Source: Thermodesulfobacteriota bacterium
GTDB taxonomy: Bacteria > Desulfobacterota > Desulfobacteria > Desulfobacterales > Desulfosudaceae
Assembly (NCBI GenBank): GCA_040753795.1
Contig: JBFMDX010000011.1
Coordinates: forward strand, 62,001-126,000
Direction of reading: 5' to 3'
DNA: 64,000 nt
Positions within the stretch are counted from its first letter, which is position 1. Each line of letters opens with the position of its first letter. A program made the translations under genes and the position numbers. The notes beneath the pieces were generated by a model. It had not been told where the DNA came from. It saw only the letters and a program-made list of their open reading frames with translations, and did no database searches. Below, piece after piece: positions 38,327-40,115 of the stretch.

Positions 38327-38944
38327 TCAGGAAGGAGCGGCATCGCCGTTGTCCGCCTTGACCCAGGTGCTGGAATTTAAGGGATGTCTTCCTTTGATGT
38401 CGCTGTAGAAATCGCGAATGGTCACCATATCCGCCTCGATATCTCCCGTCGGCATGACCGCCGGCCCGATCCCTCCGGCCTTCCGGCCATAGTCCAGGTA
38501 ACCCAGCACGATGGGAACCCCGGCACCGTTGGCGATGTGATAAAAGCCGCTTTTCCAGTACATGACCTTGCGGCGGGTCCCGGAAGGGGGAATGATCATG
38601 ATCAGTTCATTGGCTTCCTGGAACTGACTGATGGATTGGGCCACAACGTTATTTGATTTTGAACGGTCGACTGGAATGGCGCCCAGCCATTTGAAAAAAG
38701 GCCCCATGGGCCACCGGAACCACTCCGCTTTCATCATAATGAGTGGTTTGATGCGGAAAATGAACGCCAGGCAGACCGTATACAGGAAATCCCAGTTCGA
38801 CGTATGGGGTGCGGCGATGATGACATAACGGGGGATGTCGGGTCTGCAGCCTTCGGATTTCCATCCGGCGATCTTGAAAATGCAGATGGCCATCAACCGC
38901 ATCAGCGGTCTGACGACGGGCGTGTCATGAACGGTATACGGCAT
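38327..38944 (-). CDS. lysophospholipid acyltransferase family protein
   Basis: A 205-residue membrane-associated acyltransferase of the PlsC-like superfamily. The catalytic HX4D motif appears as APHTSNWDF near residue 48-56, and a later block reads IPPSGTRRK in place of the usual FPEGTRS motif, as in the divergent glycerol acyltransferase group. A hydrophobic segment (about 55-75) follows the active site. AGGAA precedes the ATG. It stands alone, convergent with the secreted repeat protein. It probably acylates a lysophospholipid or a related lipid. Confidence 0.82.
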   Translation of the reverse strand: MPYTVHDTPVVRPLMRLMAICIFKIAGWKSEGCRPDIPRYVIIAAPHTSNWDFLYTVCLAFIFRIKPLIMMKAEWFRWPMGPFFKWLGAIPVDRSKSNNVVAQSISQFQEANELIMIIPPSGTRRKVMYWKSGFYHIANGAGVPIVLGYLDYGRKAGGIGPAVMPTGDIEADMVTIRDFYSDIKGRHPLNSSTWVKADNGDAAPS

Positions 38945-39090: not shown

Positions 39091-39129
39091 TTAAGTGAAT
39101 CGACCGCCATGTAAAACAGGAGAGGCAAG

Positions 39130-39483
39130 ATGGTAAAAGTGGATTTTTATTGCTGGAGCAGGTGAACCACCTGCCGGAAAGCGAAGGAGTTTCTTTCGCA
39201 AAAAAAGATGGAAATCAACAGCAGAGATTTTTTCAAGGCCCCCTTCACGGCCGAAGAGATCAAAGCGCTGTTGAATGGGCAACCGGCGGCTGAAATATTC
39301 AATTTCCGCTCACCCAGCTACAAGGCTTTAGGATTGGATGCGGCAAGGCTCAATAGTGACGATCTGATCAAGCTGATGCTCAAGGAGCCGCGGCTGATAC
39401 GCCGGCCCGTTGTAAAGATGGGCGGGAATACTTATTTCGGCGCGGACAGTAAAATGCTGGCGGAATTGACGGGTAAAGAATAA
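39130..39483 (+). CDS. Spx/ArsC-family selenoprotein with UxxC active site
   Basis: The frame starts at an ATG at 39130 with AGGAG seven bases upstream and contains an in-frame TGA at 39163-39165. Read as selenocysteine, the 117-residue protein begins MVKVDFYCWSR-Sec-TTCRKAKEF, so Sec12 replaces the first cysteine of the CxxC of Spx (CTSCRKA) and aligns with the catalytic Cys12 of ArsC; Cys15 would be the resolving residue. The rest fits the family: an INSRDFFKAPFTAEEIKALL helix and the LIRRPVV motif near the C-terminus. A SECIS hairpin follows. It is likely a thiol-disulfide or arsenate-type reductase; a simple ORF scan sees only residues 27-117. I recall ArsC-family (seleno)proteins from anaerobes. 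Confidence 0.87.
39181..39199 (+). promoter_or_regulatory. SECIS element of the Spx/ArsC-like selenoprotein
   Basis: GCGAAGGA pairs with UCUUUCGC (one G-U pair) around the loop GUU; the stem starts 16 nt and the loop 24 nt after the UGA. The apical loop begins with G, as bacterial SECIS elements require. Confidence 0.65.
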
Positions 39484-39494
39484 GAAAGTCGGGC

Positions 39495-40115
39495 TTACAG
39501 CAGGCCGGCGTCGGTAAGGGCGGAGGCGACGCCGGCGACGCCGGCCACCCGGAAGGCCCGCAGGCCGCAGTCCAGGGCAGCCTCCACGTTTGGCTGGCTG
39601 TCGTCCAGGAAGACGATGGATCCGGCCGGTACGCCCAGTTTCTCAACCACGTAGGCAAAAGCCTCGGCATCCGGCTTGACCAGGCCCATCTGAAAAGAGG
39701 CAAAAGTATGATCGAAAAAGTCCAGGACCGCATAGTCACCGGTCAGAATTTCCCAGTGGACCGCGTTGGTGTTGGAAAAACAGGCCAGACCGTAGCGTGA
39801 GGAGAGACGTTCCAGCAGATCTTCAGCTCCGGGAAAGACGCCGGTGATCCAGCCGTTGAACACCGTCGTGAATTCGTCGTCAGTCACCGCCAGCTTCAGT
39901 TCCTCTTTCAATTGAGCCCGGAATTCGGCAAACCCGATACGGCCGCTCTCAAAAGCCCGGACGGCTGGGGAAACCAGCCATTTGTTCATCAGTTCCGGCG
40001 GTGTCAGCCTGTCCCGCGTCCACTGGCAGACAATCGCGGCCCCGGACAACTGGAACAGCACCCCGCCCAGGTCAAACAGGATGGTGGACACATCGGACAC
40101 ACGCTGATCTTTCAT
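39495..40115 (-). CDS. HAD family hydrolase (phosphatase-like)
   Basis: A 206-residue HAD-IA hydrolase. Motif I reads ILFDLGGVLFQL (second acidic residue replaced by Gly, as in YihX-like members), motif II is FSNTNAVHWE, and the motif III-IV region reads KPDAEAFAYVVEKLG with IVFLDDSQPNVEAA. A cap domain lies between motifs I and II (about 30-95). The ATG at 40115 is chosen; the in-frame upstream extension to 40262 overlaps the start of the divergent nadE and lacks homology. The substrate is probably a small phosphorylated metabolite. It is convergent with the selenoprotein gene, 11 nt apart. Confidence 0.87.
   Translation of the reverse strand: MKDQRVSDVSTILFDLGGVLFQLSGAAIVCQWTRDRLTPPELMNKWLVSPAVRAFESGRIGFAEFRAQLKEELKLAVTDDEFTTVFNGWITGVFPGAEDLLERLSSRYGLACFSNTNAVHWEILTGDYAVLDFFDHTFASFQMGLVKPDAEAFAYVVEKLGVPAGSIVFLDDSQPNVEAALDCGLRAFRVAGVAGVASALTDAGLL

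Follow-up and report, generated by a model that had tools for sequence, protein, structure and literature searches.

A putative selenocysteine-dependent thiol-disulfide oxidoreductase of the ArsC/Spx family encoded by a Thermodesulfobacteriota bacterium

In a 64,000-nucleotide stretch of contig JBFMDX010000011.1 from a Thermodesulfobacteriota bacterium, referred to here as the window, a frame related to Spx and ArsC proteins contains a TGA triplet at the position of the reactive cysteine. This raises the questions of whether the triplet is decoded as selenocysteine (Sec, U), and of what such a protein would do. The 117-residue frame has a single in-frame TGA, at codon 12, and ends with TAA; its translation begins MVKVDFYCWSR-U-TTCRKAKEFLSQKK... 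The locus comprises the following features, with coordinates relating to the window.

39118..39122, plus strand: ribosome-binding site AGGAG, 7 nt 5' of the ATG (from the sequence)
39130..39483, plus strand: Sec-containing ArsC/Spx-family protein, 117 residues and TAA stop (family, homologue and fold evidence)
39163..39165, plus strand: TGA codon 12, almost certainly Sec, opening the redox motif U12-T-T-C15 (TGA or Cys in 55 of 56 loci)
39181..39199, plus strand: SECIS-like hairpin of 8 pairs, apical loop GUU with the G first (covariation, synonymous-codon null)
39208..39483, plus strand: truncated ORF of a standard caller, residues 27–117, 91 aa (ORF list)
38327..38944, minus strand: divergent neighbour, acyltransferase (PF01553; ORF list and domain match, context only)
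39495..40109, minus strand: convergent neighbour, HAD-family hydrolase (PF00702; ORF list and domain match, context only)

The good ribosome site claimed in the original prediction is present, and a plain ORF caller does see residues 27–117 only; since the ORF list has just this segment here, the redox motif is missing from the plain gene call. For the HAD gene, the ATG at 40109 was taken as the start; its longest ORF extends to 40262. Just 11 nt (39484–39494) separate the stop codons of the two convergent genes.

The first cysteine of the Spx motif CTSCRKA aligns with U12, so that the TGA does lie at the Spx reactive cysteine, and family sequence is kept on either side of it in all nine rows of alignment A1. 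Searching genome_contigs, in which each species is represented by one genome, with this 9-row alignment retrieved 56 related loci in named genomes, 40 with TGA and 15 with Cys at the codon-12 position and one (L103) ending short of the site; the expectation that homologues would carry Cys or Sec there was thus borne out. The Sec loci derive from Smithella, Syntrophaceae, other “Deltaproteobacteria”, Dehalococcoidia, SAR202 and other Chloroflexi, the Cys loci from Nitrosopumilus-type genomes (9), Clostridia (3), Dehalococcoidia (2) and an Acidobacteria record (1). In a sample of the phylum, 32 of 395 genomes had a match, and the eight strongest, the window's own among them (E at most 1.2e-39), each showed one TGA, at the same codon. 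Within family f103, 28 of 51 genomes matched, all 28 matches containing one TGA, the place of which was inspected in the fetched loci. Four of 194 genomes of the order matched, but the window's own genome and G027 alone belong to the family of the Sec protein; the matches of G049 and G061 were weak (E 2.1e-4 and 5.4e-4), appeared glutaredoxin-like by eye, and were rejected as relatives. The window protein as a single-sequence query found no relatives in genome_contigs or viral_contigs. Six duplicates were dropped; L103 and L107 were left out of the protein alignments and the tree, and L070, L072 and L091 out of alignment A3.

The genome (4.75 Mb in 41 contigs, 99.76% complete) encodes the machinery that the original prediction had proposed to look for, each component scoring above its cut-off: SelA (602.6 bits, cut-off 267.9), SelB (372.1 bits, cut-off 242.25), SelD (360.3 bits, cut-off 125) and a tRNA-Sec (75.1 bits, gathering score 47) with the anticodon TCA according to ARAGORN. 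An in-frame TGA also occurs once in selD itself (L018, C2:321613-322539), close to the start of the gene. Elsewhere in the order, a glutaredoxin-like frame (L024:1501-1713) shows a TGA where the first Cys would stand (TTPTUPYC). From the comparison with its relatives, codon 12 of the window protein is almost certainly decoded as selenocysteine.

The 8-pair hairpin claimed to follow soon after the TGA was found 15 nt downstream of it, with stem 39181–39188 paired to 39192–39199 and loop GUU at 39189–39191. In the available text of PMC1088965, a bacterial SECIS element is described as a hairpin just after the UGA with a small apical loop containing G; position, small loop and G all recur at 39181–39199. 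Conservation was assessed in a gapless alignment (A2) of 43 Sec rows, namely the window, 40 loci, L026 and L029, while L034, L036, L051 and L052, which belong to other branches, were kept out. Paired cells made up 92.2% of 344, compared with 83.1% in shuffles, and cells with a double change numbered 40 compared with 13.4, neither value being reached in any of 500 shuffles. The covariation was 0.399 (0.228 in shuffles), and five of the eight pairs had changed on both sides, which 25 of 500 shuffles equalled; slid registers were only 34–71% paired.

As the hairpin stretch is also protein-coding, a second null was built by swapping codons for synonyms in 1000 versions. Only two of these reached 8 pairs for the window sequence. 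The 43 Sec rows averaged 7.37 pairs, compared with 4.14 expected and a highest null mean of 4.65 among the 1000 versions, and a mean energy of -9.18 kcal/mol compared with -3.34 for the null, the lowest null mean being -4.29. The hairpin is poor in four of the 43 rows (L091 with 4 pairs, L106 with 5, L072 and L079 with 6). The 21 Cys rows, by comparison, had 0–5 pairs in the hairpin register, near their own null, although some fold well in other registers (L107 at -14.9, L037 at -9.4 and L035 at -8.5 kcal/mol). Compensatory pairs in the Sec rows, with none of note in the Cys rows, indicate that the hairpin tracks the TGA and not the protein sequence. Support for the element comes from this comparison and not from single-sequence folding, which gave an unremarkable z of -1.17, with 26 of 200 dinucleotide shuffles folding equally well; an Rfam search of 39100–39500 with E up to 10 returned no match. 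Comparison of the sequences thus shows that the hairpin is maintained as a structure, to a degree that the encoded protein does not account for, as is a bacterial SECIS.

The “Spx/ArsC-like” label of the original prediction is correct with regard to fold and family. The protein matches PF03960 (ArsC) with 63.3 bits (cut-off 24), its gene being the only PF03960 match of the genome. All 52 rows of alignment A3 match TIGR01617 (Spx/MgsR), TIGR00014 (arsenate reductase) and three Spx models at E 0.001. The predicted structure (mean pLDDT 91.9, pTM 0.81) resembles Spx in Foldseek with an E value of 2.6e-9, and its 21 best solved fold matches are Spx, YffB and ArsC-type chains at Z 12.2–16.4, with 1rw1 (YffB), 3rdw, 3f0i and the Spx entries 3gfk, 1z3e and 3ihq tied at Z 15.5–16.4. 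YffB (1rw1) is thus close in predicted fold (Z 16.4, on a par with Spx and others), but shares 24% identity with the protein. Assignment to the ArsC/Spx fold and family is hardly in doubt; the label should not, however, be taken to mean an Spx regulator or an arsenate reductase, as the tested features of each are absent.

Invariant in the 52 rows are Sec/Cys12, C15, R32, E43, R92 and P93. R92 and P93 form an Arg-Pro motif, the third residue of which is Val in the window protein (RPI in Spx). Of the 66 Sec rows of the tree set, 31 have Cys8, and these 31 all fall into the window's sub-branch of 33 rows (support 86); among the 26 Cys rows, two have it, both from Clostridia. The tree (92 rows, 115 columns) was calculated by a quick method, and 44 of its 89 inner branches have support below 80. 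At least six changes of the Sec/Cys label are needed on it, three of them forced by well supported branches; L086, a Cys row, had no label in this tally. The window's row is unplaced inside a 16-row set with Smithella-type rows, and a transfer from Smithella-type bacteria is only a guess.

A sister ArsC/Spx-like protein (loci L032–L038 and L114–L142) was matched in all 41 genomes of family f129. Of its 40 orthologue rows, all with an E value of 1.8e-37 or lower, 28 contain TGA and 12 do not, and at the site itself 32 distinct rows of 36 loci (four duplicates dropped) comprise 23 Sec and 9 Cys rows. Since the Cys rows nest among the Sec rows in the tree, the sequences suggest that Sec/Cys exchanges have occurred within f129. 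Against the synonymous null, the hairpin gave a mean z of -1.41 in the 23 Sec rows and -0.78 in the 9 Cys rows, a modest contrast.

Bacteria insert Sec when SelB and Sec-tRNA(Sec) bind the SECIS hairpin. The window protein is probably a thioredoxin-fold ArsC/Spx-family protein with a catalytic Sec, acting as a Sec-dependent thiol-disulfide oxidoreductase. By analogy with established Sec insertion, SelB carrying Sec-tRNA(Sec) would bind the hairpin at 39181–39199 and insert Sec at codon 12. The U12 selenolate, located at the start of helix 1 near the invariant R92-P93, would then attack an oxidised substrate, most probably a disulfide or sulfur in a comparable oxidised form; C15 would resolve the adduct, giving a U12–C15 selenenylsulfide that a thioredoxin- or thiol-type reductant could reopen. 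We infer the disulfide reductase step from the fold and from the role generally ascribed to UxxC selenoproteins. In the window's sub-branch, where Cys8 is nearly fixed, this third residue may serve as a second group for resolution or binding. The Sec protein may also have a sensor role.

We lean towards such a redox enzyme over a polymerase-bound regulator, i.e., a Sec redox switch within an Spx-type transcription regulator, in which formation of the U12–C15 bond would alter a surface for RNA polymerase and DNA. The latter reading, which we consider improbable, draws on the resemblance to Spx in fold, in the position of the CxxC motif and in the Arg-Pro motif, and on the presence of counterparts to R92 and R60 of Spx, the latter being Lys in some relatives. 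Spx chains are moreover the best solved matches of the profile, followed by ArsC-related proteins and YffB, and TIGR01617 is the best NCBIfam model, with 73.9 bits (Cys written for Sec); yet its cut-off of 75.05 is narrowly missed, though the relative L053 reaches 80.0 bits. CXXC, Gly52 and RPI are named as Spx hallmarks in the accessible part of PMC12822559; in the window protein, CXXC has become UXXC, RPI is kept in its Arg-Pro part, and Gly52 is missing, the stretch being two residues shorter with no aligned Gly in the profile alignment. Gly50 lies near the missing place, and a shifted equivalent is possible. Spx K62 is replaced by Pro. According to the sections of PMC2801614 at hand, Gly52 and Y263 both contribute to the contact of Spx with the alpha-CTD, and Y263 is not found in Gram-negatives; the RpoA of the host reads VRSSNCLK, with Ser at the Tyr263 place as set by C265 and K267 of that work. 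The shorter Gly52 segment, the Pro for K62 and the Ser for Tyr263 in the host alpha subunit render a classical Spx role unlikely. An Spx-like regulator of a Gram-negative anaerobe, using the U–C bond and contacting the polymerase other than through Gly52–Tyr263, is a doubtful proposition; if it were true, Sec, having a lower redox potential and exchanging faster, would allow such a transcriptional switch to report traces of oxygen or polysulfide.

A Sec-dependent arsenate reductase of the ArsC type seems very unlikely. Glutaredoxin-type ArsC proteins share the superfamily, the fold, the position of the reactive residue and the Arg-Pro motif with the window protein, and the genome contains acr3; but the score for TIGR00014 is 46.4 bits, against a cut-off of 106.05, and UxxC stands in place of CxxS. 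Canonical ArsC relatives (L041, L044 and L046) have a C-terminal RPP/RPS Arg, which we take to be the catalytic R107; it is lacking in the six other bacterial rows compared, with Ala at its place in the window protein, L066 and L088, Thr in L053, and Phe in L032 and L036. R60 of the window protein stands two columns from the middle Arg of L044 in the alignment, presumably the equivalent of R60 of E. coli ArsC. The gene, flanked by the acyltransferase and HAD hydrolase genes, lies apart from ars genes, and on another contig (C7) a phosphatase-fold arsenate reductase is encoded directly before acr3 (L144:5768-7397; PF01451 69.9 bits, cut-off 23.2; TIGR02691 150.7 bits, below the cut-off of 174.3). 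Absence of the C-terminal Arg and the phosphatase-fold reductase next to acr3 argue against arsenate reduction by the Sec protein, even though the consulted portions of PMC1088965 and PMC2398784 include Sec forms under the name “arsenate reductase”.

A reading of the TGA as a genuine stop codon or as a sequencing error, which would leave a pseudogene or a short ORF from the ATG at 39208, can practically be dismissed, because the active site lies upstream of this ATG, the sequence is conserved on both sides of the TGA in 9/9 A1 rows, and compensatory hairpin changes accompany the TGA and not a Cys codon. Dozens of other assemblies, moreover, have the TGA too, which makes a wrong base in place of TGC or TGT very unlikely.

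Selenoproteins of this kind have been reported before. The 2008 GOS selenoproteome lists, in the text available to us, a UxxC selenoprotein “Arsenate reductase 2” of cd03032, for which 42 selenoproteins from 21 samples are given alongside 238 Cys homologues (PMC2398784), and cd03032 is given as ArsC_Spx in the corresponding section of PMC8755942. By domain and motif, i.e., an ArsC_Spx domain with Sec in UxxC, the window protein is like “Arsenate reductase 2”; the latter, however, came from metagenome reads, whereas the present loci are mainly from Syntrophales-type and Chloroflexi genomes, and the Cys8 of the window's sub-branch is a further difference. No discussion of the function of “Arsenate reductase 2” was found in the parts of PMC2398784 seen. 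Fourteen Sec “arsenate reductases” of the UxxS type are described in the excerpted text of PMC1088965, and the sections at hand of reviews from 2022 and 2026 list a UxxS and a UxxC form (PMC9312934, PMC13188914), the latter identified with NF041106 in the 2026 review. An ArsC frame with TGA at the reactive position (NPSUGKS), of the UxxS type known from the literature, was noticed just before the match of L050. Like the NF041106 ArsC family (seleno)protein (ArsC_rel_Se_1), as outlined in PMC13188914, the window protein is ArsC-related and has UxxC, but it scores 34 bits against a cut-off of 85, while the true members L051 and L052 reach 112.1 and 117.3 bits; both of these contain TGA. No NCBIfam selenoprotein model matched the window protein above its cut-off. 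The word Spx is absent from the main text, as far as available, of PMC1088965, PMC2398784, PMC9312934 and PMC13188914; our searches found no report on a Sec form of Spx, judged by titles and the beginnings of abstracts, nor any treating the present branch or its function. UxxC selenoproteins of cd03032 have thus been known since 2008, judging from the text consulted, and the window protein adds a member from a little-studied branch.

Among 43 sequences (42 loci and the window, the flanks often being cut by contig ends), gene neighbours provided no clue to a substrate. Only the Sec/Cys protein itself and ORFs overlapping it form neighbour clusters of more than seven loci; genes around mutS and mutL are common to five to seven Chloroflexi, and among the 40 clusters listed no gene is shared by more than five Syntrophales-type loci. 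In the Chloroflexi loci L080, L084, L085, L087, L088, L090 and L092, the Sec protein follows a mutS-cluster gene (MutS confirmed in L088); six of these seven have a mutL-cluster gene after the Sec protein (MutL confirmed in L092), and a conserved ORF of roughly 145 aa adjoins it in six loci. At L082:5212-6342, a Cys form and a HAD-family hydrolase share one frame of 376 aa, a candidate fusion with an internal ATG ahead of the ArsC part.

Because ordinary gene calls lose the active site, proteins of this branch probably appear in annotations as Spx/ArsC fragments without their N-terminal part. Family f129, as one bacterial family with both Sec and Cys forms, provides a natural test of the benefit of Sec within one fold.
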